From: an uncultured beta proteobacterium
Lineage (GTDB): Bacteria; Pseudomonadota; Gammaproteobacteria; Burkholderiales; Burkholderiaceae_C
DNA: 64,000 nucleotides
Direction: 5' to 3'
Assembly (NCBI GenBank): GCA_903960915.1
Contig: CAJCCO010000107.1
Coordinates: 26,894 to 90,893, forward strand
In this document: positions 15,219 to 61,152 of the stretch, piece after piece
How the letters are laid out: each line of letters opens with the position of its first letter
Numbering within the stretch: position 1 is the first letter of the stretch
Program-made: the position numbers and the translations under genes
Notes under the pieces: generated by a model
The model's database searches: none
Seen by the model: only the letters and a program-made list of their open reading frames with translations
Told to the model about the DNA's origin: nothing

Positions 15219-15239
15219 GTTCAGTTCTCCTAAAGGGGG

Positions 15240-16040
15240 TTAATTCAATTCAACCGGTGGCAGCGTCCATTCGCTGCGCACCTGTTCCATGGGTTCGGTC
15301 AGCACCCGGTTGCGGGCACTGTTGATGTGGGCCATCAGCAGCTCCACGGCCCGTGCGCCGTCGCGCTGGCGCAATGCGGCGATGAATCGCAGGTGCTCCT
15401 GCATGGCGGGCATCAGGCGGGTCGGAGTGATCACGCTGTGCTCGAGTTTGATGAGGCGCACGCGTAAGCTGTTGACCCGGTACATGTCAGACACGATGTC
15501 ATTGCCCATCGCGTCAACCATGCGGTCATGCAGGCCCCAGTCAATGGCCTGGGCGTCTTCCAGCAAGCGCTCGTCATACACCTGGGCGCTGGCGCGGGCC
15601 AGAATATTGTTGTGGCTGGCCTCAATGGCGTCGAGTTCCTCGGTGCTGGCGGTTTGCACAAAATGCAGCACTGCCTCGCGCTCAATCATGTGGCGCACCT
15701 GAAAGGCGTTGCGGATGAGCTTCAAGTCCACCGGCACAATTTGCAGGCCGCGCTGCGGCACGGTCTTGATCAAACCACCCGCCTCCAGGCGCGGAATCAT
15801 CTCGCGCACGGCGCCCAGGGGCATGTTCAGGAGCAGCATCAGCTCGCGCTGCGAAATAAACTGCCCCGGCCGAATGCCGCCGCTCAAGATCTGCCGGGTA
15901 AAGCCGTCGTAAGCGCGGGCACGCTGGCTGACAGGCTCAGCCACCGCAACCGCCGCGAGTTGCACACCCCCAGCGCGTGAAGCGCCGGCGTGGGGCGCTT
16001 TCTTGACGGCTGGAATTTTGGCAGTGGGCATGGCGAGCAT
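15240..16040 (-). CDS. GntR family transcriptional regulator (FCD/FadR-type)
   Basis: FTRQILSGGIRPGQFISQRELMLLLNMPLGAVREMIPRLEAGGLIKTVPQRGLQIVP. Confidence 0.9.
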   Translation of the reverse strand: MLAMPTAKIPAVKKAPHAGASRAGGVQLAAVAVAEPVSQRARAYDGFTRQILSGGIRPGQFISQRELMLLLNMPLGAVREMIPRLEAGGLIKTVPQRGLQIVPVDLKLIRNAFQVRHMIEREAVLHFVQTASTEELDAIEASHNNILARASAQVYDERLLEDAQAIDWGLHDRMVDAMGNDIVSDMYRVNSLRVRLIKLEHSVITPTRLMPAMQEHLRFIAALRQRDGARAVELLMAHINSARNRVLTEPMEQVRSEWTLPPVELN

Positions 16041-16132
16041 CAGGGTTTCAACTAGGACAGGACTGACATGTTAGCGCTACCATCAGCCCATGCTTACTGT
16101 CGTAAACCCCTAGAAAACCCACTTTCAGCCCC

Positions 16133-17032
16133 ATGAAAATAGACGCCCACCAGCACTATTGGCACTACCAGGCGGAAGACTTGCCCTGGATAGACCCGTC
16201 CATGACCGTGCTGCGCCAGGACCGCCTGCCCCACGACATTGCGCCGGCGCTGGCAGCCTGTGGCATAGACGCCGTGGTAGCCGTTCAGGCCCGGGGCAGC
16301 CTCAAGGAAACCGAATTTTTGCTCCAGTTGGCCGCCCAGCACCCGCATATAGCGGGCGTGGTGGGCTGGGTCGATTTGAAAAGCAGTGCGCTGGAAAAAA
16401 CCTTGGAAAGCTGGACGGCACACGCCGTGCTTTGCGGACTGCGCCATCAATTGCAGGACGAGTCCCAGCTGGCAGATTTTCTGGCCCAAGCCGCCTTCAA
16501 CCGGGGGGTCGCGCTGCTGCAAAGCCGCAGCCTGGTGTACGACCTGCTGGTGCTGCCAGCGCAACTGCCTTTGCTCTTGAAGTTTTGCGCCGCACATGAC
16601 CGCCACTGGCTGGTGCTGGACCACCTGGCTAAGCCCGATTTACGTGCCCCTGGCGCCGCCCAGGCCATCAACCCCGCTTGGGCCGCGCAACTGCGCGCCC
16701 TGGGGCAACTGCCGCATGTGGTGTGCAAGCTGTCCGGCCTGGTGACCGAAACCAGTGCCGCCCACACGGGTTTGACAGCGGGTTTGACAGCGGGTCTGAC
16801 GGCGGCCGATGAGCAGGCGATCTTGGCGTGTTACGACCTGGCACTGGAAGCCTTTGGGCCACAGCGTTTGCTGTTTGGCTCGGACTGGCCGGTGTGCGCG
16901 CTGGCGGCCCCGTTTGAAGTCGTGCATGGCTTGGCCCAGCGTTGGGCGCAGTCGCGCCTGAGTGACACCGAGCAAGCAGACTTCTGGGGCGGCAACGCCC
17001 AGCGCTGCTATGGTTTGAAGCTGGCCGCTTGA
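16133..17032 (+). CDS. Amidohydrolase_2 family sugar lactonase (fuconolactonase/rhamnonolactonase-like)
   Basis: MKIDAHQHYWHYQAEDLPWIDPSM, LVLDHLAKPDLR, PQRLLFGSDWPVCALAAPFEVV. Confidence 0.88.
   Translation: MKIDAHQHYWHYQAEDLPWIDPSMTVLRQDRLPHDIAPALAACGIDAVVAVQARGSLKETEFLLQLAAQHPHIAGVVGWVDLKSSALEKTLESWTAHAVLCGLRHQLQDESQLADFLAQAAFNRGVALLQSRSLVYDLLVLPAQLPLLLKFCAAHDRHWLVLDHLAKPDLRAPGAAQAINPAWAAQLRALGQLPHVVCKLSGLVTETSAAHTGLTAGLTAGLTAADEQAILACYDLALEAFGPQRLLFGSDWPVCALAAPFEVVHGLAQRWAQSRLSDTEQADFWGGNAQRCYGLKLAA
16768..16803. repeat. In-frame 12-bp tandem repeat (gggtttgacagc x2 + gggtctgacggc) encoding GLTAGLTAGLTA
   Basis: Read directly inside the lactonase gene. Confidence 0.95.
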
Positions 17033-17061
17033 AACAAAACCGAACCGACCCCAGAAAGTAA

Positions 17062-17850
<789 letters not shown>

Positions 17851-17861
17851 CCTGAAGGCGC

Positions 17862-18875
17862 TCAGCCCGTCAAGCCATCGACCACCGTGGGATAACGCAG
17901 TCGCAGCCCCAACTCAGACAGCAAGCGCGTGTTGTCCATGCGGCGCGACTCACTCATGAAGCTCAAAAGCATCAGCGGCAACTGGTCTTTGGCGGTGCTG
18001 CGCGGCAGCCGCGGCGGGTGCGCCAGACCGTAGAGGTCAGCGGCCAGATCAAAGTAATCGCCCATCTTGAGCCGGGTGTTGTCGTTCACGTTGTAAATGC
18101 GCTGCGGCCCCGCATGCCACAAAGCGGCCACGCAAGCGCGCGCCAGGTCGTCGGCATGAATATGGTTGGTGTACACATCGTCGGCTGCCAGCAGCACCGG
18201 CGTGCCTTTTTCCAGCCGGGCGCGCGGCGTGCCGCCTTCACGGTTGGGCGCGTAAATACCGGGAATGCGCAAAATGCTGCTGCGCACCCCGGCGCTTCGG
18301 CCCAAAAAGCGCACCGCCTGCTCTGCGTCGACACGCCGAATAGCGCGCGGCGAGTCGGCGTGGGTGCCGCGCGTCTCGCTCACCACCGCCCCCTGGCAGT
18401 CGCCATACACCCCACTGGTGGAGCCATACACCAGCGCTCGCGGCAGCGTGCCCAAACGCAGGGCCCGCGTGAGCGCCTGCGTGCGGGGGTCGCGCCAGCC
18501 TTGGCCCGGAGGGGGTGCCAGGTGCAACACCGCATGGGCCAGCCCCGCCAGACGACGCAGCGTGGCGGGTTCATCCAAATTACCCACCAGGGGCGTGATG
18601 CCGAGCGCACGCAGGGCCGGCGTACGCGCCGGGCTGGAGGTCAGCGCCAGCAGGCGTACGCGACCTTGCAGGGCTTGCGCCACACGTTGACCAATATCGC
18701 CACAGCCAACGATCAAGACACGCGAACGGCGAAAACGCGCCGGCAAGGTGCCGGGGTGGGTGGCATACAGGCTGCGCGAGGGGTTTTGTTTTAAAGGCAA
18801 AATTGGGACCCTACTGAAAAATGAAACTTCGCCAAGGATACAAAGAAATATGAGCAGCAGCAGCAGCGCCGCCAA
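17862..18875 (-). CDS. NAD-dependent epimerase/dehydratase (SDR) family protein; start codon uncertain
   Basis: VLIVGCGDIGQRVAQALQGRVRLLALT; YGSTSGVYGD; upstream extension MAALLLLL overlaps the next gene's start and is probably not translated. Confidence 0.75.
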   Translation of the reverse strand: MAALLLLLIFLCILGEVSFFSRVPILPLKQNPSRSLYATHPGTLPARFRRSRVLIVGCGDIGQRVAQALQGRVRLLALTSSPARTPALRALGITPLVGNLDEPATLRRLAGLAHAVLHLAPPPGQGWRDPRTQALTRALRLGTLPRALVYGSTSGVYGDCQGAVVSETRGTHADSPRAIRRVDAEQAVRFLGRSAGVRSSILRIPGIYAPNREGGTPRARLEKGTPVLLAADDVYTNHIHADDLARACVAALWHAGPQRIYNVNDNTRLKMGDYFDLAADLYGLAHPPRLPRSTAKDQLPLMLLSFMSESRRMDNTRLLSELGLRLRYPTVVDGLTG

Positions 18876-21831: not shown

Positions 21832-23034
21832 TCAAGGCGTCGCCGCACCCGCTTCAAACCAGCGCTTGATTAACAGACGTTCGTCAGCGGTTATGGCCGT
21901 GGAATTGCTCATGGGCATCGCCTGGCTCACCACCACCTGCTGGTAAATATTTTGCGCGTGAAGTTTGACGTTGTCGGCTGAATCCAGCCGCACGTTTTTC
22001 ATTTGCACCTGCTCGCCGTGGCACAGGTAGCAGCGCTGCGCCAGCACCACCTGCACCTGGGCGTAATCAGGCGGCGAAGACGCCGAAGCCTTGGTGAGTG
22101 CCACATCGGCCGGCTTGAGCCAGACAATCATGGCCACGATCACCAGCACGCCCACCAGCGCATACGGCCAGGGGTGCGCATTGCGGCCGAGCTTGTAGCC
22201 GTGTCGCATCACAAAAAACTGGCGAATGGCGGCGCCGGCAAACATCATGGCGATCAGCACCAGCCAGTTGTAGGGGTGGTTGTAGGTAAAGCTGTAGTGG
22301 CCGCTGAGCATGGCAAACAGCACCGGCAGGGTGAAGTAGGTGTTGTGCACGCTGCGCTGCTTGCCGCGCTTGCCGTGAATTGGGTCGACCGGCTCACCCG
22401 CCTTGATGGCAGCCAGCACTTTTTTCTGCCCCGGAATAATCCAGAAGAACACGCTGGCACTCATGCTGGTGGCCAACATGGCACCCACCAGCAGGAAGGC
22501 GGCCCGCCCCGCAAACCAGTGGCAGGCCAACCAGGACGCCACGCACACCAGCACCAACACCAAGGCGCCAACGATGGCGTCGCCATGCTTGCGCTGGCCA
22601 AACACCCGGCAAATCAGGTCATACAAAAGCCAGAACACCACCAAAAAAGCAAGCGCCACGGCAATGGCGGTGGCAGGGGCCCAGTCCATGCGCGATTTGT
22701 CGATCAGGTAGGTGCTGGCGTTCCACAAATACGACACCGTGAACAGCGAAAAGCCCGACAACCAGGTGCTGTAGCTCTCCCAATAAAACCAGTGCAGGTG
22801 GCTGGGCAGCTTGGGTGGCGACACATTGAATTTGACCGGGTGGTAAAACCCGCCCCCGTGCACGGCCCAAAGCTCGCCGCTGACACCCTGTTGCTTCAGG
22901 TCTTCATCCACCGGCGGCGTCAAGCTGCTGTCGAGGAAGACAAAATAAAACGAGGAGCCAATCCAGGCAATGGCGGTGATGACATGAACCCAGCGAAGCA
23001 GCAGGTTGGCCCAGTCGAGGTAGTAACTTTCCAT
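21832..23034 (-). CDS. puuD: Membrane urate hydroxylase/urate oxidase PuuD with C-terminal cytochrome c domain
   Basis: MESYYLDWANLLLRWVHVITAIAWIGSSFYFVFLDSSLTPP..., C-terminal CYLCHGE haem motif; purine gene context. Confidence 0.9.
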   Translation of the reverse strand: MESYYLDWANLLLRWVHVITAIAWIGSSFYFVFLDSSLTPPVDEDLKQQGVSGELWAVHGGGFYHPVKFNVSPPKLPSHLHWFYWESYSTWLSGFSLFTVSYLWNASTYLIDKSRMDWAPATAIAVALAFLVVFWLLYDLICRVFGQRKHGDAIVGALVLVLVCVASWLACHWFAGRAAFLLVGAMLATSMSASVFFWIIPGQKKVLAAIKAGEPVDPIHGKRGKQRSVHNTYFTLPVLFAMLSGHYSFTYNHPYNWLVLIAMMFAGAAIRQFFVMRHGYKLGRNAHPWPYALVGVLVIVAMIVWLKPADVALTKASASSPPDYAQVQVVLAQRCYLCHGEQVQMKNVRLDSADNVKLHAQNIYQQVVVSQAMPMSNSTAITADERLLIKRWFEAGAATP

Positions 23035-23226
23035 CAGTCTCTTCCTTGGCGGCGCGCACACGGCGCTCCGCTGTCAAGCAGACTGCTCACCACTGCGGGC
23101 GCTGTAAGCAGAAAAAGGGTCGCGAACTTAGGCAGGGGACCTGCCTCGCTCCGCTGCGACTCAAGGGGCAAAGTGTAGGGGTTTTTTGAGCAGGGCCGAG
23201 TGCCGTTTCATGCGGGCGCCTTGGGG

Positions 23227-24069
23227 CTATCCCTGAGTTAAGCCTTGCAACAACTGGGCCGCCACGGCTACCGCAATCACTTCGGGCGCTTTACCTGAGA
23301 TACCGGGCACGCCAATGGGGCAGGTGATGCGAGCCAACTCTTGTTCACTGAACCCGCGCGCCTGCAGGCGGTGCCTGAACGTGGCCCATTTGGTTTTACT
23401 GCCAATCAACCCAACGAAGGGCAGGTCATCCTGCACACGCAGACGAAGCAGGCAGGCCGCCACCACGTCCAGGTCTTCGGCATGGCTAAAACTCATGATC
23501 AGCACCTGCGAGCCCGCCGGCAAAGTGGGCACGGCGGCCTGCACCGGGTCGGAGTGTTCAACCGTGGTGTTGGCGGGCAGTTGCGTGGGGAATATTTCAT
23601 GGCGGCTGTCAAACCAGTTCACCCGAACCGGCAAATGGCCCAGCACCTGCACCAGCGCGTGACCCACGTGGCCGCCGCCAAACAAGGCCACCGGCATTTG
23701 GTGGGCGGTCAACCGGGCCTGCAGCCGCGGTAAGTCGGCGCGCGTGACGCGCTCCAACTGCAATTGCACCTCGCCCCCGCAGCACTGCCCCAGGCTGGGG
23801 CCCAAGGCAAAACGCAGCAGGCCCTCGCCAGGTGCGTGGAGCGCTGCGGGTACCGCGGCGCCCTGTGGATCGGCGTCCAGGCGCAGACGGGCTTGCGCCA
23901 TGGCGGCAAACTCCAGATGCCCGCCGCCCACGGTGCCGACGGCGCCTTCCTTGAAGACACCCATCCAGGCACCGGCTTCACGCGGCACCGAGCCGCGCGA
24001 GGAATGCACCGTGATCAACACGGCGTCTTCCACCGCGAGCCGGGCTAAAAATAATTCAGTAGTACTCAC
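23227..24069 (-). CDS. xdhC: Xanthine dehydrogenase accessory protein XdhC
   Basis: VHSSRGSVPREAGAWMGVF, GTVGGGHLEF, LFGGGHVGHALVQVL. Confidence 0.92.
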   Translation of the reverse strand: MSTTELFLARLAVEDAVLITVHSSRGSVPREAGAWMGVFKEGAVGTVGGGHLEFAAMAQARLRLDADPQGAAVPAALHAPGEGLLRFALGPSLGQCCGGEVQLQLERVTRADLPRLQARLTAHQMPVALFGGGHVGHALVQVLGHLPVRVNWFDSRHEIFPTQLPANTTVEHSDPVQAAVPTLPAGSQVLIMSFSHAEDLDVVAACLLRLRVQDDLPFVGLIGSKTKWATFRHRLQARGFSEQELARITCPIGVPGISGKAPEVIAVAVAAQLLQGLTQG

Positions 24070-25307: not shown

Positions 25308-25973
25308 ATGGAAAACTCCAGCACCAGCCAGATTGTTGACAGCCTCACCAAGGCCATCATCGAACATCGCCTGAACCCCGGCGCCAAATTGGCCGAGCAA
25401 AAGGTGGCAGATCATTTTGGCGTGTCGCGTACGCTGGTGCGCCAGGCTTTCTTCCTGCTGGCACAGAACCGGCTCATTCGCCTGGAGCCTGCTCGGGGTG
25501 CTTTTGTAGCCACCCCTTCGGCCGATGAGGCTCGGCAGGTGTTTGCCGTGCGCCGCATGCTGGAGCTGGAAATGACGCGCGCCTTTGTGCGCACCGTGAC
25601 GCCGGCCATGATCAAGTCGCTGAAAGCGCACGTGGCCCGCGAAAAGCTGGCCGTGCAGAATGAAGACGTACCCGGGCGCACCGAGTTGCTGGGCGACTTT
25701 CATGTCTGTATGGCCGAGCTCACGGGCAACCTGGTGCTGGCGCAAATGCTCGGAGACCTGATCTCGCGCTGCTCGCTGATCACGCTGATGTACCAGTCCG
25801 CCAGTGCTGCCGAGCATTCCAACACCGAGCACGCCACTATTGTGAAAGCCCTGGCCGCCAAAGACGAAGCCCTGGCGGTGCGCTTGATGGACGAACACCT
25901 GCACCACGTTGAAGCCAACCTGACCTTCGAGCGCGAACAACCCCTCAACGACATTTCACAGGCCTTGTCCTGA
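25308..25973 (+). CDS. GntR family transcriptional regulator (FCD)
   Basis: IVDSLTKAIIEHRLNPGAKLAEQKVADHFGVSRTLVRQAFFLLAQNRLI. Confidence 0.92.
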   Translation: MENSSTSQIVDSLTKAIIEHRLNPGAKLAEQKVADHFGVSRTLVRQAFFLLAQNRLIRLEPARGAFVATPSADEARQVFAVRRMLELEMTRAFVRTVTPAMIKSLKAHVAREKLAVQNEDVPGRTELLGDFHVCMAELTGNLVLAQMLGDLISRCSLITLMYQSASAAEHSNTEHATIVKALAAKDEALAVRLMDEHLHHVEANLTFEREQPLNDISQALS

Positions 25974-26013: not shown

Positions 26014-26964
26014 ATGAAAAATTACGACACCACCCTGCCCTACCCGCGCGACCTGATGGGCTACGGCCCCCAGGTACCGCATGCGCAATGGCCCGGCCAG
26101 GCCCGTGTGGCGGTGCAATTTGTGCTGAACTATGAAGAAGGTGGCGAGAACAGCGTGCTGCATGGCGACGCCGGTTCTGAGCAATTTTTGTCAGAGATGT
26201 TCAACCCGGCCAGCTACCCCGAGCGCCACATCAGCATGGAGGGCATTTACGAATACGGCTCGCGCGCGGGCGTGTGGCGCATCCTGCGCGAATTTGAGTC
26301 ACGCCGCTTGCCGCTGACCGTGTTTGGCGTGGCCACCGCGCTGCAAAAACACCCCGAGCTGACCGCAGCCCTGCAAGCACTGGGGCACGACATCGCCTGC
26401 CACGGCCTGAAGTGGATTCACTACCAGCACATTGACGAAGCGACTGAGCGCGCCCATATGGCACAGGCCATGCAGATCCTGCAGGAGCTGACCGGTGAGC
26501 GCGCGCTGGGCTGGTACACCGGGCGCGACAGCCCCAACACGCGCCGCCTGGTGGCCGACTTTGGGGGCTTTGAGTACGACAGCGATTACTACGGTGACGA
26601 CCTGCCGTTCTGGATGAAGGTACAAAAGACCGACGGCAGCGTGGCGCCTCAACTCATCGTGCCATACACCCTGGACTGCAACGACATGCGCTTTGCCCTG
26701 CCGCAAGGCTATTCGCACGCCGACCCGTTCTTTCAATACCTGAAAGACACGTTTGATGCGCTGTATGCAGAAGGCGACCCCAACGGCCTGAACGCCCCCA
26801 AGATGATGAGCATTGGTATGCACTGTCGCCTGCTGGGCCGCCCTGGGCGCATCACCGCCCTGCAACGGTTTTTGGACCACATCCAGTCTCACGACCAGGT
26901 CTGGGTGGCGCGCCGCTTGGACATTGCGCGGCACTGGAAAACCGTGCACCCGTTCACGGCATAA
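26014..26964 (+). CDS. puuE: Allantoinase PuuE (polysaccharide-deacetylase fold)
   Basis: YPRDLMGYGPQVPHAQWPGQARVAVQFVLNYEEGGENSVLHGD; GWYTGRDSPNTRRLV. Confidence 0.94.
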   Translation: MKNYDTTLPYPRDLMGYGPQVPHAQWPGQARVAVQFVLNYEEGGENSVLHGDAGSEQFLSEMFNPASYPERHISMEGIYEYGSRAGVWRILREFESRRLPLTVFGVATALQKHPELTAALQALGHDIACHGLKWIHYQHIDEATERAHMAQAMQILQELTGERALGWYTGRDSPNTRRLVADFGGFEYDSDYYGDDLPFWMKVQKTDGSVAPQLIVPYTLDCNDMRFALPQGYSHADPFFQYLKDTFDALYAEGDPNGLNAPKMMSIGMHCRLLGRPGRITALQRFLDHIQSHDQVWVARRLDIARHWKTVHPFTA

Positions 26965-27000: not shown

Positions 27001-28779
27001 ATGTCCCTGACCCTGAACCAACTCAATGCCGCCAGCCAGGCCGAGGCCGCGCAGCTGCTCGATGGCCTGTACGAACACTCGCCATGGATTGCCGAGCGCG
27101 CCCTGGCGCAACGCCCCTTCACATCCCTGGCGCACCTGAAGCACGCCATGACAGAGGTACTGGCCCAGGCCGGGGTGGAAGCACAGCTCGGTCTGATTCG
27201 CGCCCACCCCGAGTTGGCGGGCAAGGCCATGGTGAGCCAAACTCTCACCGCCGAATCGACCAACGAGCAGAACAAGGCGGGGCTGACCCAATGCACGCCC
27301 GAAGAATTGACGCACATCGGGCAACTCAACGCCGAGTACAAGGCCAAATTCGGCTGGCCCTTCATTCTGGCGGTACGCGGCCCGCGCGGCGTGGGCCTGA
27401 GCAAGCAACAAATTCTTGCGGCCTATGCGCGCCGCTTGCACGGTCACCCCGACTTTGAACGGCAGGAATGCCTGCGGCAGATTCACCGCATCGTAGAAAT
27501 TCGTCTGAACGACAAATTTGGCGTGCAACCCACGCAGGGCCAACAGGTGTGGGACTGGCAAGAGCAACTGGCCGTTCACAGCGACCCCGGTTTTGCCGAG
27601 CAAGGACAGCTGACCGTGACCTACCTCACCGATGCCCACCGCGCCTGCGCCCGAGATCTGGCGCAGGGGATGCGCGACTGCGGCTTTGACTCGGTAGAGA
27701 CCGACGCGGTAGGCAACGTGGTGGGGCGCTACCACCCCGCCACGGCTGAGGGCCGCTACCTGCTGACCGGCAGCCACTACGACACCGTGCGCAATGGCGG
27801 CAAGTACGACGGGCGCCTGGGCATCTTTGTGCCCATGGCCTGCGTGCAGCAATTGCACCGCAAGGGCCAACGTCTGCCTTTCGGCATCGAAGTGGTGGGT
27901 TTTGCCGAAGAAGAAGGTCAGCGCTACAAAGCCACTTTTCTGGGCTCTGGCGCCTTGATTGGCCAATTCAATCCGGCCTGGCTGGACCAGAAGGACGCAG
28001 ACGGCATCGCCATGCGCGAGGCCATGCAGCACGCCAATCTGCGGGTGCAAGACATCGCCCAGATTACGCGCAACCCGGCTCGCTACCTGGGCTTTGTTGA
28101 GGTGCACATTGAACAGGGCCCAGTGCTCAACGAGCTCAACATGCCGCTGGGCATCGTCACCTCTATCAACGGCAGCGTGCGCTACCTTTGCGAGGTGATT
28201 GGCACGGCCAGCCATGCGGGCACCACACCCATGAACCGCCGCCGCGACGCCGCCTGTGCCGTGGCCGAGCTGGCCTTGTACCTGGAGCAACGCGCCGCCC
28301 AGGACGGTGACAGCGTGGCCACCATCGGGCAGTGGCACGTGCCCAACGGCTCCATCAACGTGGTGCCGGGCCGCTGCCTGTTCAGCCTGGACCTGCGCGC
28401 CCCCACCGATGCCCAGCGTGACGCGCTGGCAACTGATGTGCTGCGTGAGCTGCAGCACATTTGCCAGCGCCGCGGCGTGCGCCACAGCGCCGAGGTCACG
28501 ATGTCAGCCGCCGCCGCCCCCAGTGCCCCGGCCTGGCAGGCCCGCTGGGAACGCGCGGTACAAGCCCTGGGCGTTCCGCTGTTCAAGCTGCCCAGTGGCG
28601 CCGGCCACGACGCCATGAAGCTGCACGAGGTAATGCCGCAAGCCATGCTGTTTGTGCGCGGTGAAAACGCCGGCATCAGCCACAACCCGCTAGAGAGCAC
28701 GACCTGCGATGACATGCAACTCGCTGTCGAGGCCTTTGAGAACTTGCTGGCCGAACTGGCCCAAGACCACACGATTTAA
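27001..28779 (+). CDS. Fusion protein: N-terminal OHCU decarboxylase (UraD) + C-terminal allantoate amidohydrolase/carbamoylase (AllC-like M20)
   Basis: N-term LLDGLYEHSPWIAERALAQRPF...IRAHPELAGKA...RLHGHPDFERQECLRQIHRIVEIRLNDKFG; C-term GSHYDTVRNGGKYDGRLGIFVPMA, EEEGQRYKATFLGSGAL, HIEQGPVLNELNMPLGIVTSING. Confidence 0.93.
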   Translation: MSLTLNQLNAASQAEAAQLLDGLYEHSPWIAERALAQRPFTSLAHLKHAMTEVLAQAGVEAQLGLIRAHPELAGKAMVSQTLTAESTNEQNKAGLTQCTPEELTHIGQLNAEYKAKFGWPFILAVRGPRGVGLSKQQILAAYARRLHGHPDFERQECLRQIHRIVEIRLNDKFGVQPTQGQQVWDWQEQLAVHSDPGFAEQGQLTVTYLTDAHRACARDLAQGMRDCGFDSVETDAVGNVVGRYHPATAEGRYLLTGSHYDTVRNGGKYDGRLGIFVPMACVQQLHRKGQRLPFGIEVVGFAEEEGQRYKATFLGSGALIGQFNPAWLDQKDADGIAMREAMQHANLRVQDIAQITRNPARYLGFVEVHIEQGPVLNELNMPLGIVTSINGSVRYLCEVIGTASHAGTTPMNRRRDAACAVAELALYLEQRAAQDGDSVATIGQWHVPNGSINVVPGRCLFSLDLRAPTDAQRDALATDVLRELQHICQRRGVRHSAEVTMSAAAAPSAPAWQARWERAVQALGVPLFKLPSGAGHDAMKLHEVMPQAMLFVRGENAGISHNPLESTTCDDMQLAVEAFENLLAELAQDHTI

Positions 28780-28796: not shown

Positions 28797-30023
28797 ATGA
28801 GCACCCCTTACGAACAACTCGACACCTGGATCGACGCCCACTTTGATGAACAAGTGAAGTTCTTGCAAGAACTCATACGCGTCCCCACCGACACCCCGCC
28901 CGGCAACAACGCACCGCACGCCCAACGCACCGCCGAGCTGCTGCACGGCATGGGTCTGGAGGCCGAACAATACGCCGTGCCTGAATCCGAAGTGCACGCC
29001 ATCGGTATGCAAAGCGTGACCAACTTGCTGGTACGGCGCGCCTATGGCCCTGGCAAAACCGTGCTGCTCAATGCCCACGGCGACGTGGTGCCGCCTGGCG
29101 AAGGATGGACCAAAAACCCCTACGGCGGCGAGATTGAAGACGGCAAGCTGTATGGCCGTGCCGCAGCGGTCAGCAAGTGCGACTTCTCCAGCTACACCTT
29201 TGCCGTGCGCGCCCTGGAGGCCGTGGCCAAACCCAGCAGCGGCAGTGTCGAGCTGCTGTTCACGTACGACGAAGAGTTTGGCGGCGAAGTGGGACCGGGC
29301 TGGCTGCTGAAGAAAAAAATCATCAAACCCGACCTGATGATTGCCGCCGGTTTCAGTTACCAAGTTATTACTGCGCACAACGGCTGTCTGCAAATGGAAG
29401 TCACCGTGCACGGCAAGATGGCCCACGCCGCCATTCCCGATTCAGGCGTGGACGCCTTGCAGGCCGCAGTAAAAATTCTCAACGTGCTGTACGCACAGAA
29501 CACGCTCTACCAACAAATCACCTCGCAGGTCGAAGGCATCAACCACCCTTACCTCAATGTCGGCATGATCGAAGGCGGCACCAACACCAACGTGGTGCCT
29601 GGGCGCGTGAGCTTCAAGCTGGACCGGCGCATGATCCCGGAAGAAAATCCGGTGCACGTGGAAGCCACCCTGCGCCAGCTCATCACCGACACTGCTGCGC
29701 AGCAGCCCGGTGTCAGCGTCGACATCAAACGCCTGCTGCTGGCCAACGCCATGCGGCCGCTCCCGGGTAACCAGCCCTTGGTGGATGCCCTGCAGAAACA
29801 CGGGCAAGCCGTTTTTGGTGAACCCATTCCCGCCCTGGGCACCCCGCTGTATACCGACGTTCGGCTGTTCTGCGAGGCTGGTATTCCCGGTGTCATTTAC
29901 GGCGCTGGCCCGCGCACCGTGCTCGAATCGCACGCCAAACGCGCCGACGAACGGCTCGACCTGGAAGACCTGCGCCGCGCCACCAAAGTGGTGGCACGCA
30001 GCCTGCTGGACCTGTTGGCCTGA
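28797..30023 (+). CDS. M20 family metallohydrolase (ArgE/DapE/acylase-like)
   Basis: NAHGDVVPPGEGWTKNPYGGEIEDGKLYGRAA; YDEEFGGEVGPGWLL; NVGMIEGGTNTNVVPGRVSFKLDRRMIPEE. Confidence 0.9.
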   Translation: MSTPYEQLDTWIDAHFDEQVKFLQELIRVPTDTPPGNNAPHAQRTAELLHGMGLEAEQYAVPESEVHAIGMQSVTNLLVRRAYGPGKTVLLNAHGDVVPPGEGWTKNPYGGEIEDGKLYGRAAAVSKCDFSSYTFAVRALEAVAKPSSGSVELLFTYDEEFGGEVGPGWLLKKKIIKPDLMIAAGFSYQVITAHNGCLQMEVTVHGKMAHAAIPDSGVDALQAAVKILNVLYAQNTLYQQITSQVEGINHPYLNVGMIEGGTNTNVVPGRVSFKLDRRMIPEENPVHVEATLRQLITDTAAQQPGVSVDIKRLLLANAMRPLPGNQPLVDALQKHGQAVFGEPIPALGTPLYTDVRLFCEAGIPGVIYGAGPRTVLESHAKRADERLDLEDLRRATKVVARSLLDLLA

Positions 30024-30865
30024 TGCACAGCGCAGACCTGCCAACGCTGCGCGAGCGCGTGCGGGCGCACATGAACGACACGCTGGTGGCCGACTTCCAG
30101 CGCGACGGTGCTGTCTGCGTGCGCCAATTCTTCACACCGGACGAAGTGGCCCTGCTGGCCCGCGGCATTGAAGCCAACCTGGCTGCGCCCAGCCCCCGTG
30201 CCATGGTGGCCAGTGGCCCGGACGACCCGGGCCGTTTTTTTGAAGACTTCTGCAACTGGCGTGACATTGCGGAGTACGAGCGTTTCATCTTCAACACGCC
30301 ACTGGCCGCCCTGGCCCAAGGCCTGATGCAAAGCCAAACCGTGCGCCTGTACCACGACCACTTGCTGGTTAAAGAACCCGGCACGCGCCAGAAGACGCCC
30401 TGGCACCAGGACCAGCCTTACTACAACGTGGAAGGCTGGCAAAACGTCAGCTTCTGGATTCCGGTCGACCCGGTGTCGCGCGCCAGCACGCTGGAATTTG
30501 TGGCCGGTTCCCACCAGGGGCCCTGGCTCATGCCGCGCACGTTCATGACGCAACAGGCCAAATGGTTTCCAGAAGGTTCGCTGGCCGATCTGCCCGACAT
30601 TGAGCGGCACCGCGAGGACTTCCCCATTCTTGGCTGGGACTTGCAACCCGGCGACCTGGTGTGCTTTCACATGCTCAGCCTGCACGCCTCCGCTGGCGTG
30701 GACGGCGCCCACCGGCGGCGTGTTTTCTCCGTGCGTTTTTTAGGCGATGACATGACCCACGCGCCACGCCCCTGGGTCACCTCACCGCCCTTTCCTGGCC
30801 TGGCCGATGAACTGCCTGCAGGTCACGCCATGGACCACCCTTTGTTTCCGCTGATGGCGGTTTAA
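30023..30865 (+). CDS. Phytanoyl-CoA dioxygenase (PhyH) family Fe(II)/2-oxoglutarate oxygenase
   Basis: RLYHDHLLVKEPGTRQKTPWHQDQPYYNVEGWQNVSFWIPVDPVSRASTLEFVAGSHQGPWLMPRTF (HxD); overlaps previous stop. Confidence 0.9.
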   Translation: MHSADLPTLRERVRAHMNDTLVADFQRDGAVCVRQFFTPDEVALLARGIEANLAAPSPRAMVASGPDDPGRFFEDFCNWRDIAEYERFIFNTPLAALAQGLMQSQTVRLYHDHLLVKEPGTRQKTPWHQDQPYYNVEGWQNVSFWIPVDPVSRASTLEFVAGSHQGPWLMPRTFMTQQAKWFPEGSLADLPDIERHREDFPILGWDLQPGDLVCFHMLSLHASAGVDGAHRRRVFSVRFLGDDMTHAPRPWVTSPPFPGLADELPAGHAMDHPLFPLMAV

Positions 30866-30931: not shown

Positions 30932-32452
30932 ATGAGCGATACCCTCCACCCTGTCGACGAACGCTTGCCCACCGGGCGACTCGCTGCGCTGGGCTTGCAA
31001 CATGTGCTGGTCATGTACGCCGGCGCTGTGGCAGTGCCTTTGATCATTGGCCGGGCGCTCAAGCTCTCACCAGAGCAGGTGGCTTACCTGATCTCGGCCG
31101 ATCTGTTTTGCTGCGGCATCGTCACGCTGATTCAGTCACTGGGGGCGACGCAATGGTTTGGTATCCGCATGCCAGTGATGATGGGGGTGTCGTTTGCCTC
31201 GGTAGCGCCCATGGTGGCCATGGCCAACACCACACCGGGCGCACCCGGCGCACAGCTTATTTTTGGCGCCATCATTGGCGCGGGTTTCTTATCCATGTTG
31301 TTAGCGCCGCTGATGAGCCGCATGCTGCGCTTCTTCCCGCCGGTGGTCACCGGCACCATCATTGCGGTCATCGGCATCAGCCTGATGCGCATTGGCATCA
31401 ACTGGATTTTTGGCAACCCCTTTGGTCCCACAGCGCCCAATATCGTCAACCCCGAGCACGCCAAATGGCTCACTGAAGTGGGCTCCATGGCCAATGCCAC
31501 AGTTGCCCCTGCTGCAGGCGCCAGCGCACCGCTGGCCGCTGTGGTGCCGGCCATTCCCAAAGGGCTGGCTATTGTGGGTACCGTGCCCAACCCCAATTAC
31601 GCACCCAGCAGCGGCATCTGGGTGGCCAGCATCGTGCTCGTTTCCATCCTGCTGATTGCCAAATTCGCCAAAGGCTTTGTCGGCAACATCTCTGTGCTGC
31701 TGGGCATTGTGATTGGCGGTGTGGTCGCCACGGCCAGCGGCATGATGAATTTCAGCAAGGTGGCCAATGCCAAGTGGTTTGACCTGGTGCTGCCGTTCCA
31801 GTTTGGCATGCCCGTGTTTGACCCGGTGCTGATTCTCACCATGACGCTGGTGATGGTGGTGGTCATGATTGAGTCGACCGGCATGTTCCTCGCGCTGGGC
31901 GACATGACGAATCGCCCTGTCAGCCAGGCTGACCTGACCCGCGGCCTGCGTGCCGATGGCCTGGGCACGCTGATTGGCGGCATCTTCAACACCTTCCCCT
32001 ACACCAGCTTTTCGCAAAACGTCGGGTTGGTGGGCGTGACGGGCGTGAAGAGCCGCTTTGTCTGCGTCGCGGGTGGTTTGATTTTGTTGGCACTGGGCCT
32101 GGTGCCCAAAATGGCGGCGCTGGTGGAAAGCCTGCCCACCGTGGTGCTGGGTGGCGCAGGCCTGGTGATGTTTGGCATGGTGGCCGCCACCGGCATTCGC
32201 ATTCTGGCTGCGGTCGACTTCAAGGGCAACCGGCACAACCTGTTCATCGTGGCGGTGTCGATTGGCATAGGCATGATTCCCTTGATTGCGCCCAACTTCA
32301 AGCAATGGATGCCGCACGGCATTCACCCCCTGATTGAGTCCGGCATTTTGCTGGCCTCTATTTCAGCGGTGGTGCTGAACCTGTTCTTCAACGGCGGCCA
32401 GGGTGATGTGAACGCCAGCGTGGAAGCCGCCAAGGCAGACGGCGGACATTGA
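30932..32452 (+). CDS. Nucleobase:cation symporter-2 family urate/xanthine permease
   Basis: GLQHVLVMYAGAVAVPLIIGRALKLSPEQVAYLISADLFCCGIVTLIQSLG; IFNTFPYTSFSQNVGLVGVTGVKSRFV. Confidence 0.95.
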   Translation: MSDTLHPVDERLPTGRLAALGLQHVLVMYAGAVAVPLIIGRALKLSPEQVAYLISADLFCCGIVTLIQSLGATQWFGIRMPVMMGVSFASVAPMVAMANTTPGAPGAQLIFGAIIGAGFLSMLLAPLMSRMLRFFPPVVTGTIIAVIGISLMRIGINWIFGNPFGPTAPNIVNPEHAKWLTEVGSMANATVAPAAGASAPLAAVVPAIPKGLAIVGTVPNPNYAPSSGIWVASIVLVSILLIAKFAKGFVGNISVLLGIVIGGVVATASGMMNFSKVANAKWFDLVLPFQFGMPVFDPVLILTMTLVMVVVMIESTGMFLALGDMTNRPVSQADLTRGLRADGLGTLIGGIFNTFPYTSFSQNVGLVGVTGVKSRFVCVAGGLILLALGLVPKMAALVESLPTVVLGGAGLVMFGMVAATGIRILAAVDFKGNRHNLFIVAVSIGIGMIPLIAPNFKQWMPHGIHPLIESGILLASISAVVLNLFFNGGQGDVNASVEAAKADGGH

Positions 32453-32497: not shown

Positions 32498-33328
32498 ATG
32501 ACCTGGCACGCCCAACTTCAACTCGACTACCGTTTCGAATCTGACCGAACGGTTGCGCGTCACAGCCACACCGGCCCGCTGCGCATTTTGCAAAGTCTCT
32601 ACCCGCAAGGCGATGCGGTGTGCCACAACGTGCTGGTGCATCCGCCCGGCGGCCTGGTGGGGGGCGATACCCTGGCGCTCAACATCAGCGCCAGCGGCTC
32701 GGCACACGGGCTGGTCACCACGCCGGGGGCCACGCGCTTTTACCGCTCTGCCGGCGAAATCGCACTGCAACGTACCCACATTCAACTGCGTGACCAGGCC
32801 CGGCTGGAATGGCTGCCGCTGGAGGCGCTTTGCTACAACCAGTGCCTGGCCGAGAACCACCTGACGCTGGCACTGGAGCCGGGCTGCGAGTTCATGGGCT
32901 GGGACATCACCGCTTTGGGCTTGCCCCACGCCAATTTACCCTTTGAGCGCGGCAGTTTTTTGCAACACATTGAAGTGCCCGGTCTCTGGCTGGAGCGCGG
33001 GCGCATCGCGGCCGATGACCACTTGCTCATGCACAGCCCGGTCGGACTGGCCGGCCAGCGCTGTCTGGCCTCGCTGTTTTTTGTGACTGGCAGCAAGCTC
33101 GACCGCCAGCGCCGTGAATGCGCCTTGGACCTGGCGCGGGAAGTCATGGACAGCCACGCCTTGCGCGACAGCGCGGGCGTGAGCTGCCCCAATGCGCAAG
33201 TGATGGTGCTGCGGGTGCTGGCGCCCGTGGTGGAGCCGGCTGCTGAGTTGCTGCGTCGCGTGTGGGCCGTCTGGCGCCAGCACTTCTGGGCGCTTGATGC
33301 GGTGCCACCGCGCATCTGGTCGACCTGA
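32498..33328 (+). CDS. ureD: Urease accessory protein UreD
   Basis: [51 protein letters not shown]. Confidence 0.95.
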   Translation: [276 protein letters not shown]

Positions 33329-34698: not shown

Positions 34699-34909
34699 GA
34701 ATGGGGTCCGGTAAATCAAAGTCAGCGGCGAGGGGCCGCAGGGGCCTAGTGTCGCAAATTGCCCTGGGCCTAGTGCGCTCACGCAAGAAACCTGCAAAAC
34801 CGCTTGGCTTGCCGCCCACAACGCTGAAAAACTGCGTCCCCTTTGGCCCATGATTTGCCACACCAACCCCGCCCGCATTCGCCTTCTCTTTTTGAAAGAA
34901 TCCTGCCCC

Positions 34910-36016
34910 ATGACCGACTTGTTTGACAACCCAATGGGCCTGATGGGCTTTGAATTCGTCGAGTTCGCCTCGCCCACCCCGGGCTTGCTGGAGCCTATTT
35001 TTGAGCGCATGGGCTTCTCGCTGGTGGCCCGGCACCGCTCCAAAGACGTGGTGCTGTACCGCCAGGGGCATATCAACTTCATCGTCAACCGCGAACCCCA
35101 CAGCGAGGCGGCTTACTTTGCCGCTGAGCACGGACCGTGCGCATGCGGCATGGCGTTTCGGGTCAAGGATTCGCACCTGGCCTACGAGCGTGCGCTGGCG
35201 CTTGGCGCGCAGCCTATTGAGATCAAGACCGGACCGATGGAGCTGAATCTGCCCGCCATCAAAGGCATTGGCGGGGCGCCGCTGTACCTGATTGACCGCT
35301 TTGAAGATGGCAAATCGATTTACGACATCGACTTTCTGTTTCTCGACGGCGTAGACCGCCATCCGGTGGGCCACGGCCTGCAACTGATTGACCACCTCAC
35401 GCACAACGTGTACCGCGGACGCATGGCATTTTGGGGGGCGTTTTACGAGAAGCTTTTCAACTTCCGCGAGATCCGTTACTTTGATATTCAAGGCGAGTAC
35501 ACCGGCCTGACCTCGCGCGCCATGACCGCGCCTGACGGAAAAATCCGCATTCCCCTGAACGAAGAGTCCAAGCAGGGCGGCGGCCAGATTGAAGAGTTCT
35601 TGATGCAGTTCAACGGCGAAGGCATTCAGCACATTGCGCTGATTTGCGACGACCTGGTGGCCACTGTGGACCGGTTGCAACTGGCCGGTGTACCGCTGAT
35701 GACCGCCCCCAACGAGGTTTACTACGAGATGCTCGACGGCCGCCTGCCCGGCCATGGCCAGCCCGTGGCCGAGCTGCAAACGCGGGGCATTTTGCTGGAC
35801 GGCAGCACTGACGATCTGCAACACGGCGTGCAGCACAGCGGCAGCCCGCGGTTGCTGCTGCAAATCTTTTCGCAAACTCAGCTTGGGCCAGTGTTCTTTG
35901 AATTCATCCAGCGCAAGGGCGACGAAGGCTTTGGCGAAGGTAACTTCAAAGCCTTGTTCGAATCGCTGGAACGCGACCAGGTTCGCCGTGGCGCCATTGC
36001 TGCTGCCACCGCGTAA
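34910..36016 (+). CDS. hppD: 4-hydroxyphenylpyruvate dioxygenase
   Basis: [22 protein letters not shown]...; [50 protein letters not shown]. Confidence 0.95.
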
Positions 36017-36042
36017 ATAGCCCGCGCCAAAAGGAAGCCCCG

Positions 36043-36582
36043 ATGAAGATAGACCGCATTCACCACGTTGCCTACCGCTGCAAAGACGCCAAGGAAACCG
36101 TGCTTTGGTACCAGCACATGCTCAAGATGGACTTTGTGCTGGCCATTGCTGAAAACCACGTGCCGTCCACCAAAGCGCCCGACCCCTACATGCACGTTTT
36201 CTTGGACGCGGGCCAGGGCAATGTGCTGGCTTTTTTTGAACTGCCCACCCAGCCGCCCATGGGGCGCGACCCCAACACCCCGGCCTGGGTGCAGCACATC
36301 GCGTTTCGGGTGAAGGACCGCGCCGAGTTGCTGGCCTTCAAAGCACACCTGGAGGCCAACGGGGTGGACGTGCTGGGCGTGACCGACCACGGCGCCTTTC
36401 ACTCCATCTACTTTTTTGACCCCAACGGACACCGCCTGGAACTGGCCTGCCCGGACCCCGAGGAAGCGGCCATGCTGCAACGCCTGGACGCCGTGAAGTG
36501 GGAGATGCTTGAAGAATGGTCCAAGACCAAACGCGCGCCCCAGCATGCGGCCTTTTTGCATGCGCGCGAGTTCAAGGCATGA
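36043..36582 (+). CDS. VOC (vicinal oxygen chelate) family protein
   Basis: IDRIHHVAYRCKDAKETVLWYQHMLKMD ... WVQHIAFRV ... HSIYFFDPNGHRLELACP. Confidence 0.9.
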   Translation: MKIDRIHHVAYRCKDAKETVLWYQHMLKMDFVLAIAENHVPSTKAPDPYMHVFLDAGQGNVLAFFELPTQPPMGRDPNTPAWVQHIAFRVKDRAELLAFKAHLEANGVDVLGVTDHGAFHSIYFFDPNGHRLELACPDPEEAAMLQRLDAVKWEMLEEWSKTKRAPQHAAFLHAREFKA

Positions 36583-37865
36583 GCCGTCCATTGCACCCGG
36601 CGCCGGACGAAACCCACCACCCGGCGCTGCAAAGCTGGGTGGCTTCGGCCAACGACCCGGCCACCGACTTTCCGATTCAAAACCTGCCGTTTGGCCGCTA
36701 CAAAAGTGCGCGTGACGCTGACTGGCAAATTGGCGTGGCCATTGGCGACCAGGTCCTCAATCTGCACGCCACCGGGCTGATTGAGCACAACAATATCCAG
36801 GCGCTGATGCGTCTGCTGCCATCAGAGCGTCGCCGCCTGCGACTGGCCCTGTCGCAAGGCTTGCGTGTGGGCAGCCCCCAGCAGACGGTGTTTCAAGCCG
36901 CCCTGCTGGCACAGGCCGAGGTGCGCATGGGCTTGCCCTGCGAGATTGGCGACTACACCGACTTCTACACCAGCATTCACCACGCCACCACGGTGGGCAA
37001 GCAGTTCAGACCCGACAGCCCGCTCTTGCCCAATTACCAATGGGTGCCTATTGGCTACCATGGCCGTGCCTCCAGCATTCTGCCCAGCGGTGACAGCTTT
37101 GCCCGCCCCCGGGGGCAAACCAAGGCGCCGGACCCAGCTGCGCCCGTGCTCAGCGCCTGCCGTCGGCTGGACTACGAGCTGGAACTCGGCGTGCTGGTGG
37201 CGCGAGAGAACCGGCTGGGTGAGCCCATTGACATGGCGCAAGCCGAAGACCATGTGTGGGGTGTGAGCTTGTTCAACGACTGGAGCGCACGCGACATCCA
37301 GGCTTGGGAGTACCAACCCCTGGGGCCGTTTCTTTCCAAAAACTTTGCCAGCACCCTGGCGCCCTGGGTCGTCACGCTGGAGGCGCTGGCACCGTTTCGC
37401 GAGCCCTTCAGCCGCCCGCCCGGCCACCCCGCCCCACTGCCCTACCTCGACGCTGCAGCCAACCAAACGCAGGGTGCCTTCAACATCGAACTGGAGGTGT
37501 GGCTGCAAACCGCCGCCATGCGCCAGGCCGGCCATGCGGGCGATTGCTTGTCCCGCTCCAACTACCGCGACGCCTACTGGACGCTGGCCCAACTGGTGGC
37601 GCACCACACGGTCAACGGCTGCAACCTGCGCGCCGGCGACTTGCTCGGTACCGGCACGCTGTCAGGCCCCCTGCCGAACCAAGGCGGCTCCTTGCTGGAA
37701 CTCAGCCAAGGTGGCAAGCAAACCCTGCCTTTGTCCAACGGTGAGACCCGTACTTTTCTGGAAGACGGCGACACCGTGGTGCTGCGCGGCTATTGCCAAG
37801 CCGAGGGCTTCAGACGCATCGGTCTGGGCGAATGCCGCGGTACGGTGGCGCCGGCCCGAACCTGA
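36579..37865 (+). CDS. fahA: Fumarylacetoacetase
   Basis: FPIQNLPFGRYK; DFYTSIHHATTVGKQFRPDSPLLPNYQWVPIGYHGRASSI; ATGA overlap with the VOC gene. Confidence 0.95.
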   Translation: MSRPLHPAPDETHHPALQSWVASANDPATDFPIQNLPFGRYKSARDADWQIGVAIGDQVLNLHATGLIEHNNIQALMRLLPSERRRLRLALSQGLRVGSPQQTVFQAALLAQAEVRMGLPCEIGDYTDFYTSIHHATTVGKQFRPDSPLLPNYQWVPIGYHGRASSILPSGDSFARPRGQTKAPDPAAPVLSACRRLDYELELGVLVARENRLGEPIDMAQAEDHVWGVSLFNDWSARDIQAWEYQPLGPFLSKNFASTLAPWVVTLEALAPFREPFSRPPGHPAPLPYLDAAANQTQGAFNIELEVWLQTAAMRQAGHAGDCLSRSNYRDAYWTLAQLVAHHTVNGCNLRAGDLLGTGTLSGPLPNQGGSLLELSQGGKQTLPLSNGETRTFLEDGDTVVLRGYCQAEGFRRIGLGECRGTVAPART

Positions 37866-37872
37866 CCTGCCC

Positions 37873-38763
37873 ATGCCTACCTCCCTACCACTTCCCCTGC
37901 CCACCCTACACGGTCTGGCCGCTGCTAACACCCAGCCCCCAGAGCGCGCCGACTGGACCATAGACCAAGGCTGGCAGCATTACACGGCGCAAGACCACGG
38001 CGTCTGGAAAACCCTGTTTGAGCGGCAAAGCCGCTTGCTGCAAGGGCGCGCCTGCGATGCTTTTGTGCAAGGCATGGCCGAGTTGCCGATGGCGCCCGAC
38101 CAGATTCCAGACTTTCGCCGGCTGTCTGATGTTTTATACGCCCGCACCGGCTGGCAAATTGTGGCGGTGCCCGGCCTGGTGCCAGACGACGTGTTTTTTG
38201 AGCACCTGGCCAACCGGCGCTTTCCCGCCGGGCACTTTATCCGCCAGCCCCATGCGCTGGACTATCTGGAAGAGCCCGATGTGTTCCATGACGTGTTTGG
38301 CCATGTGCCCATGCTGATGCACCCGGTGCTGGCCGACTTCATTCAGGCCTATGGCGCGGGCGGTTTGCGCGCGCAGGCTCTGGGCCGGCTGGCGCAACTG
38401 GCACGGGTTTACTGGTACACGGTGGAGTTTGGCCTGGTGCAGCAAAAAGACGGTTTGCGCATTTATGGCGCAGGCATTGCGTCATCGGCTACCGAGAGCG
38501 TTTTTGCGCTGCAATCGCCCTCGCCCAACCGGCTCGGCTTTGCGCTGGAGCGGGTAATGCGCACGCGCTACCGCATTGACGATTTTCAGGAAAGCTACTT
38601 TGTCTTGGACAGTCTGGACGACTTATTGGCGCTGGCACACATTGACTTTGCGCCCCTGTACGAGCGGGTGCTGGGACAGTCTGAACTGACACCCGCCAGC
38701 GTGCTACCAACAGACCGGGTCCTGACACAGGGAATGGGCGACTACCACGCAGGCCGCCGCTAA
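37873..38763 (+). CDS. phhA: Phenylalanine 4-monooxygenase
   Basis: FIRQPHALDYLEEPDVFHDVFGHVPMLMHPVLADF; YWYTVEFGLVQQKDGLRIYGAGIASS. Confidence 0.95.
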   Translation: MPTSLPLPLPTLHGLAAANTQPPERADWTIDQGWQHYTAQDHGVWKTLFERQSRLLQGRACDAFVQGMAELPMAPDQIPDFRRLSDVLYARTGWQIVAVPGLVPDDVFFEHLANRRFPAGHFIRQPHALDYLEEPDVFHDVFGHVPMLMHPVLADFIQAYGAGGLRAQALGRLAQLARVYWYTVEFGLVQQKDGLRIYGAGIASSATESVFALQSPSPNRLGFALERVMRTRYRIDDFQESYFVLDSLDDLLALAHIDFAPLYERVLGQSELTPASVLPTDRVLTQGMGDYHAGRR

Positions 38764-59122: not shown

Positions 59123-59434
59123 ACCATGTCGCCTGGCGAAATCATCACCGCTGACGGCCCCGACCATGTGCTGAACCCGGGCCGGCGCACCCTCACCCTG
59201 GTGGTGCAAAACACCTCAGAGCGGCCGATTCAAGTGGGCTCGCACTACCACTTTGCCGAAACCAATGGTGCCCTGGGCTTTGACCGGGCCGCCGCCCAAG
59301 GCATGCGGCTCAACATCGCCTCCGGCTTAGCGGTGCGCTTTGAGCCGGGCCAGCAACGCACGGTGGAACTGGTGGACTACGCGGGTGAACGCGTGGTGTA
59401 CGGCTTTCGCGGCATGACACAAGGAAAACTTTGA
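59123..59434 (+). CDS. ureB: Urease subunit beta
   Basis: [64 protein letters not shown]. Confidence 0.97.
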
Positions 59435-61152
59435 TGGCTACGATGGGACGCCGCGCCTATGCGGAAATTTTTGGCCCTACCGTGGGCGACCGGGTGCGCC
59501 TGGCCGACACCGATTTGCTGATCGAAGTCGAACACGACTTGACCCTGGGCGCTGGCGGCTACGGTGAAGAGGTGAAGTTTGGCGGCGGCAAGACCATTCG
59601 CGACGGTATGGCGCAATCGCAACGCACCCGGGCCGAGGGTGCCATGGACTGCGTGATGACCAACGCCCTCATTCTGGACCACAGCGGCATTTTCAAGGCC
59701 GACATTGGGCTCAAGGGCGGCCGCATAGTCGCCATTGGCAAGGCCGGTAACCCCGACGTACAGCCTGGCGTGGACATCATCATTGGCCCGGGCACCGAGA
59801 TCATCAGTTGTGAGGGCAACATCGTCACCGCCGGCGGCATTGACTCCCACATTCACTTCATTTGCCCGCAACAGATTGAAGAGGCGCTGGCCAGTGGCGT
59901 GACCACCATGTTGGGAGGCGGCACCGGCCCGGCCACCGGCACCTTTGCCACCACCTGCACACCCGGGCCGTGGAACATGGAACGCATGCTACAAGCTGCC
60001 GATGCCTTCCCCATGAACCTGGGCTTTCTGGGCAAGGGCAACGCCAGCCTGCCCGCGGCGCTGCACGAGCAGGTTAACGCCGGTGCCATTGGCCTGAAAC
60101 TGCACGAAGACTGGGGCACCACGCCGGCGGCCATCAGCAACTGCCTGGACGTGGCCGAAGCAACCGATGTGCAGGTGGCCATTCACTCGGACACACTCAA
60201 CGAGAGCGGCTTTGTAGAGAACACCATTGCCGCCACCAAGGGCCGCAGCTTGTGCGCTTTTCATACCGAAGGCGCAGGTGGCGGCCACGCGCCAGATATC
60301 TTGCGCGTGGTGGGCGAGGCCAACTTCTTGCCCAGCTCCACCAACCCCACCATGCCCTACACCGTGAACACGCTGGACGAGCACGTGGACATGCTGATGG
60401 TGTGCCACCACCTGGACGCCGGCATTGCCGAAGACCTGGCGTTTGCAGAAAGCCGGATTCGCAAAGAAACCATTGCCGCCGAAGACGTGCTGCACGACCT
60501 GGGCGCCATCAGCATGATGAGCAGCGACAGCCAGGCCATGGGCCGGGTCGGCGAGGTCATCATCCGCACCTGGCAGAACGCGCACAAGATGAAACAGCAG
60601 CGTGGCAAACTGCCTGAAGACACCGAGCGCAACGACAACTTCCGCGCCAAACGCTACGTGGCCAAGTACACCATCAACCCGGCTATTGCCCATGGCATCA
60701 GCCATGAGGTGGGCAGTATTGAAGTTGGCAAATGGGCCGATGTGGTGGTGTGGAAACCGGCCTTCTTTGGCATCAAGCCGGCCTTGATTCTTAAAGGCGG
60801 TTTCATCGCCATGGCCGCCATGGGCGACCCCAACGCCAGCATTCCCACACCACAGCCGGTGCACTACAGGCCCATGTTTGGCGCTTATGGCGGCGCACTG
60901 GCGCGCGGCTCGCTGACCTTTGTGTCGCAAGCCGGCCTGAATGCCGGTATCAAGGAGCGCTTTGGCCTGACCAAAACCCTCAGCGCCGTGAAGAACATTC
61001 GCGCCGTGCGCAAGCAGCACATGGTGCACAACCATTACCTGCCCACCATGGAAATAGACGCCCAGACCTACGCAGTGCGTGCTGACGGCCAACTGCTGAC
61101 CTGCGAACCCGCGGTAAGCTTGCCGATGTCGCAACGTTATTTTTTATTCTGA
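59431..61152 (+). CDS. ureC: Urease subunit alpha
   Basis: [56 protein letters not shown] (carbamylated Lys); MVCHHLD. Confidence 0.98.

Follow-up and report, generated by a model that had tools for sequence, protein, structure and literature searches.

Conversion of allantoate to ureidoglycine by AllC leaves a last ureide step, for which AllA or UAH, often together with AllE, is needed to form glyoxylate. We analyzed a 64,000-nucleotide stretch of DNA from an uncultured beta proteobacterium of the order Burkholderiales (the whole stretch is referred to as the window) that carries a urate operon in which a UraD-AllC fusion gene is followed by genes for an M20-fold protein and a PhyH-type Fe(II)/2OG oxygenase. 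Which protein acts after AllC in this operon, and do the two genes form a functional unit? The preliminary description of the window proposed that they may constitute an added branch of oxidation plus hydrolysis or else replace the canonical ureidoglycolate step. We found that M20 and PhyH are two unrelated genes with separate histories that do not form a conserved unit. The M20 protein probably is the enzyme that follows AllC in urate breakdown, more likely acting as a lyase, with PhyH standing apart as a gene apparently relocated once.

Organization of the urate operon

The operon and the associated genes of the window are as follows.

21832..23061, minus strand: PuuD-type membrane protein with a C-terminal cytochrome domain, taken as urate oxidase (named from sequence)
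23227..24069, minus strand: XdhC-like protein (named from sequence)
25308..25973, plus strand: GntR/FCD regulator at the operon head (PF07729, PF00392)
26014..26964, plus strand: PuuE allantoinase (TIGR03212, 503.8 bits, cutoff 424.6)
27001..28779, plus strand: UraD-AllC fusion, OHCU decarboxylase and allantoate amidohydrolase (PF09349, 159 bits; NF010373, 1031 bits)
28797..30023, plus strand: M20-fold protein of the ArgE/DapE subfamily, without canonical di-metal ligands, 408 aa (PF01546, 87 bits; M20_dimer, PF07687, 69.8 bits)
30023..30865, plus strand: PhyH-type Fe(II)/2OG oxygenase, MysH-like, 280 aa (PF05721, 86.2 bits, cutoff 22)
30932..32452, plus strand: NCS2 urate/xanthine-type permease (TIGR03173, 522 bits)
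32498..33328, plus strand: UreD urease accessory protein (PF01774, 142.7 bits)
59431..61152, plus strand: UreC urease alpha subunit (TIGR01792, 960 bits; PF00449)

Family searches confirmed the flanking PuuE, UraD-AllC fusion and NCS2 permease named in the preliminary description, and the two open reading frames were recovered at the same coordinates, with the M20 stop codon TGA (30021-30023) and the PhyH start codon ATG (30023-30025) overlapping by 1 nt in a TGATG junction. Alignment of the PhyH N-terminus with that of the ortholog in locus L034, where the two genes are separated by 2 bases, lends credence to this start. The metal ligands of the AllC half of the fusion are intact in the alignment to 3n5f. 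In relatives, homologs of the PuuD-type protein and of the XdhC-like protein are again encoded next to this operon. Genome contexts were called using tblastn with window and hut queries together with a simple ORF caller; the names PuuD, XdhC-like and malic enzyme and those of the tyrosine-degradation genes rest on sequence similarity or reading unless a family match is given.

The ureD gene adjoins the urate operon; ureC, ureE, and a UreG-like gene follow about 26 kb farther downstream (32498-33328 and 59431-63171). The distance between ureD and ureC is just about 8 kb in genome G190, and the urease locus of the window hence looks split by an insertion. Between ureD and the remaining urease genes, the window contains genes read as HPPD, fumarylacetoacetase, and phenylalanine hydroxylase (tyrosine degradation, 34850-38763). 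Upstream of the operon, galactarate/altronate dehydratase, a DctP-type binding protein, and an epimerase-family dehydrogenase (8664-18875) suggest a sugar-acid pathway.

Distribution of the M20 and PhyH genes

Among the 201 genomes of the family, M20 orthologs (E<=1e-80) were detected in 164 and PhyH orthologs (E<=1e-20) in 28, and the two genes adjoin each other in only two genomes. In the set of 80 named loci, PhyH is a neighbor of M20 in a single one (L266, from an uncultured Limnohabitans), with about 0.5 kb between the genes. Given the differing genome distributions, the rare adjacency and the prevalence of PhyH in other contexts, a conserved PhyH-M20 branch was rejected. The model put forward in the preliminary description, in which M20 hydrolyzes what PhyH makes by oxidizing an N- or C-substituted purine or ureido compound, draws on the adjacency and the 1-nt overlap in the window and on the same neighbors in L034 and L266. 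We regard it as very improbable, considering that each gene is generally found without the other (M20 in nearly all genomes, PhyH in most), that the genes in L266 are not tightly spaced, that the PhyH copies of urate loci are one clade inside a wider family, and that the hydrolytic ligands are gone from M20. Conservation of the neighborhood, on which this description was to stand or fall, is nearly nonexistent for the pair and is clear for M20 taken by itself.

The M20 gene is present in 161 of the 166 family genomes that bear puuE. Across the 201 genomes, both genes were found in 161, PuuE only in 5, M20 only in 3, and neither in 32 (Fisher p 1.9e-28, uncorrected for relatedness; the sampled genomes are related, and such values therefore overstate independence). 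In 71 of the 76 named loci with room for it, the gene immediately before M20 encodes AllC, and the order PuuE-UraD/AllC-M20 was observed in all 20 sampled M20 neighborhoods. L147 and L148 lack PuuE and UraD but retain AllC-M20 next to an ABC transporter of the amino-acid type, which suggests that these two proteins make up the functional core; the transporter may import allantoate directly. A GntR-like gene is also present at L147. M20 without AllC nearby was found at L143, L150, and L215. Outside the family, 17 further genomes of the order carry M20 at 50-77% identity, and in 15 of these 17 loci, the gene is located near AllC or PuuE. A search beyond the order, in 274 genomes drawn from the class, yielded matches in the same family only.

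In several loci (L107, L110, L112, L113, and L034), SsuA/NMT1-like ABC transporters are encoded downstream of M20 or NCS2, in some cases joined by a small deaminase-like protein, possibly for purine or ureide uptake.

Absence of canonical ureidoglycolate enzymes and apparent module replacement

The established pathway includes two ureidoglycolate enzymes, AllA and UAH (PMC3793230). As noted in the preliminary description, no ureidoglycolate lyase is apparent: there was no match to AllA (PF04115) anywhere in the genome containing the window, the M20 protein included. AllE was not detected above the cutoff in this genome either, where the sole match was a 20-bit, sub-cutoff cupin, and passed the cutoff in only 1 of the 201 family genomes.

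Of the five genomes with PuuE but without M20, three (L162-L164) have a contig that ends inside or just after AllC. In the other two (G131 and G049), allantoicase is encoded next to AllA, and the UraD gene has no AllC gene after it; this module is confirmed by family matches (allantoicase TIGR02961, 459 bits; AllA PF04115, 198 bits). AllC plus M20 and allantoicase plus AllA thus behave as alternatives, and the former pair appears to replace the latter, a swap that rests on two genomes. AllA homologs are also encoded in 34 genomes with both PuuE and M20; the two that were read closely (L157 and L158) belong to unrelated clusters.

The position after AllC and the missing canonical gene fit, by context, the ureidoglycolate-processing class. 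The absence of AllA from the genome, the near absence of AllE from the family, and the module swap single out M20 as the leading candidate for processing ureidoglycine/ureidoglycolate. Replacement of the canonical step, as suggested in the preliminary description, thus probably holds for M20 alone and does not extend to PhyH. A search of the open literature for M20 together with ureidoglycolate and allantoate amidohydrolase returned nothing relevant; one possible prior report (PMC4016543) was dropped, as its subject is ureidoglycine carbamoyltransferase.

An altered active site in the M20 protein

The M20 fold itself is well supported by the PF01546 and M20_dimer matches and by a Foldseek match to 7uoi (E 5e-27), with both the catalytic and the dimerization domains present. 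Among the best 25 of 58 models for M20, the leading ones were of the ArgE/DapE type, and TIGR01879, a model of the hydantoinase/carbamoylase family that includes plant-type UAH, was listed for the AllC fusion only. For TIGR01910 (cutoff 217.6 bits), the window protein scored 216.4 bits and the orthologs from L143, L149, and L155 scored 222.6, 223.1, and 217.3 bits, respectively. The following positions of the M20 gene correspond to the active site.

29076..29084, plus strand: H94-G95-D96, the retained metal-ligand His and its Asp (invariant in alignment A3)
29169..29177, plus strand: V125-S126-K127 in place of canonical D-M-K, the bridging metal Asp replaced by Val (aligned ungapped opposite the DMK of three PDB relatives)
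29271..29276, plus strand: E159-E160, the retained general base and metal-ligand Glu (invariant in A3)
29346..29348, plus strand: A184, at the place of the canonical GEPT metal Glu (alignment to 7uoi)
29931..29933, plus strand: H379, the C-terminal metal His position (Asn or Gly in many orthologs)

Thus, the five-residue di-metal site (His, bridging Asp, Glu, Glu/Asp, and His) is incomplete in M20, with Asp changed to Val, Glu changed to Ala, and the last His variable. Loss of the bridging Asp was observed in all 40 sequences of the first set, all 17 of the distant set, and all 80 named loci (these sets partly overlap). The label of M20 metallohydrolase used in the preliminary description is accordingly doubtful.

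Alignment A3 consists of 18 M20 sequences, the others being 51-82% identical to the window protein. Its invariant residues include H94, D96, E159, E160, S126, K127, D129, H194, and H210, and further N265, D276-R278, D354, R356, R373, and E377. Few parts of the protein are as conserved as the ancestral pocket, where TYDEE, VSKxD, N265, D276-R278, R373, and E377 are invariant. The combination of ligand loss with strong conservation of the old pocket points to a chemistry that has been retained in changed form, perhaps that of a lyase, rather than to decay.

These observations bear on a reading in which M20 is a non-catalytic partner that stabilizes AllC or channels for it, with ureidoglycine decaying spontaneously. 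Such a role, which we consider improbable, would be compatible with the loss of the metal ligands and with AllC-M20 being the tightest linkage; the conservation of the pocket and the existence of AllA operons that lack both AllC and M20 speak against it.

AlphaFold modeling of M20 (pLDDT 79, with DapE as the best match) supports the fold. The model falls below pLDDT 50 at residues 187-192, 261-266, and 372-382, and metal binding therefore lies beyond what it can decide. D129, H194, and D354 could rebuild a metal site.

Proposed role of M20 and the nature of its product

In the route that we consider most plausible, the intact AllC would convert allantoate to ureidoglycine, NH3, and CO2, and M20 would act on ureidoglycine, or on ureidoglycolate derived from its hydrolysis, yielding glyoxylate in place of AllA/AllE. 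M20 retains the fold, the HxD motif, the Glu-Glu pair, and the pocket Arg, Asn, and His residues and has lost the bridging Asp, the second Glu, and often the His, from which we infer that hydrolysis via a di-zinc center is gone. When ureidoglycolate is split into glyoxylate and urea, the reaction is a retro-addition, which calls for an acid and a base but for no metal-bound water, so a lyase would be chemically reasonable; M20 more likely catalyzes such a step, with urea released for urease.

Genome context offers some clues to the products. Of 118 loci, 12 have a hydroxypyruvate isomerase gene in the vicinity of M20, located 60 bp behind it in L098 (TIGR03234, 392 bits), and 28 have a gene for malic enzyme there. 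These neighbors, present in a minority of loci, fit glyoxylate as the M20 product. In each of the 25 tabulated same-contig pairs (chosen by eye), the distance between UreC and M20 is 16-128 kb, which fits urea release. UreC above the cutoff is missing from 30 of the 164 M20-bearing genomes, which is awkward for urea as the product and would suit ammonia better. In line with the latter, M20 might remain a metal-dependent hydrolase with a rebuilt or mononuclear site and the same pathway position, either a ureidoglycolate amidohydrolase (producing two NH3, CO2, and glyoxylate) or a ureidoglycine aminohydrolase. Retention of H94, E159, and E160, the invariance of D129 and H194, and the presence of an M20-fold 5-nitroanthranilate aminohydrolase among the top fold matches speak for this alternative. 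We nevertheless consider it unlikely, given that no ortholog inspected has the bridging Asp and that many carry Asn or Gly in place of the C-terminal His.

The candidate for the last ureide step is a single gene, recognized by models of ArgE/DapE deacylases. In Burkholderiales that pair AllC with M20 (Rhodoferax, Variovorax, Acidovorax, Polaromonas, Limnohabitans, and others), there is mostly no recognized enzyme for this step. The family also provides a conserved case in which to study the loss of metal ligands from a metallohydrolase fold that remains under strong selection.

Origin of the PhyH gene

The Fe site of PhyH is complete, with H128, D130, H221, R232, and R238 invariant in the 16 sequences of alignment A2, and the protein is probably an active Fe/2OG oxygenase. 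The best structural match of the predicted model (pLDDT 89.6) was MysH (9c9n, TM 0.76/0.81). The 26 other PhyH orthologs (at least 59% identity) comprise 1 in a urate context (L034, G190), 15 in hut operons, and 10 in scattered loci, for example, next to genes reading as DNA ligase or purL. The 15 hut-embedded copies, 64-77% identical to the window protein, occupy various positions among HutC, HutH, HutU, and HutI. Their residence in hut operons is at odds with an oxidative branch of urate breakdown and ties this MysH-like oxygenase subfamily to histidine catabolism. In the phylogenetic tree of PhyH, the copies from the window, L034, and L266 form one clade (support 99/99), with the hut-linked copies located elsewhere in the same family tree. 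Given this single urate-locus clade, one relocation from a hut-associated family into the urate operon is the simplest reading. PhyH is probably co-transcribed in its present location, and we regard it as a passenger or as an added nitrogen-scavenging function.

In the MysH reaction, an amidine-like nitrogen loses its amino-acid substituent. Chemistry of this kind could make N-formimidoylglutamate, or a different intermediate of the hut pathway, an interesting candidate substrate for PhyH. A search of the open literature for PhyH with histidine utilization or methylhistidine returned nothing relevant.

A PhyH paralog (40% identity) is encoded on another contig of the same genome (L061, C2, 5422-9942), about 7 kb beyond hutH, with genes for a HisC-like aminotransferase and an FAD-linked oxidase close by. 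This aminotransferase/oxidase pair recurs in the hut loci L036 and L039, possibly as a side route of histidine breakdown. PhyH relatives from other families of the order (L185-L193, 38-47% identity) are found in mixed contexts; among these, only L190 (45% identity) is hut-linked, adjoining hutU-hutH.

Comparison with known systems

Among solved structures, that of MysH, which takes part in making palythine-type products (PMC11378024), is nearest to PhyH in both sequence (E 4.7e-28) and fold. The two proteins are only 27% identical, and their contexts differ: MysH belongs to mycosporine clusters, whereas the neighbors of PhyH are urate genes and its relatives reside in hut or scattered loci.

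The DapE/ArgE deacylases (7uoi, 5vo3, and 7rsf) share the fold with M20 and are its best sequence relatives, but their bridging Asp and GEPT Glu are Val and Ala in M20, where the C-terminal His position is also variable. The allantoicase-AllA module (EC 4.3.2.3; for AllA, PMC3793230) occupies the equivalent place in the pathway, next to PuuE, PuuD, and UraD in G131 and, with the genes on separate contigs, in G049. Its proteins are, however, unrelated, and its first step is catalyzed by allantoicase, not AllC. Plant UAH (PDB 4pxb and 4pxe) resembles M20 in being an M20-fold enzyme that acts after allantoate amidohydrolase, but its counterpart in alignment is the AllC portion of the fusion protein (hydantoinase/carbamoylase type), whereas M20 is of the ArgE/DapE type and lacks the metal ligands. 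Tentatively, the M20 subfamily that is spread across Burkholderiales might, after loss of the di-zinc site, have taken on a new role as a lyase that cleaves ureidoglycolate or ureidoglycine independently of metal, a previously unassigned third solution to the last ureide step beside AllA and UAH.
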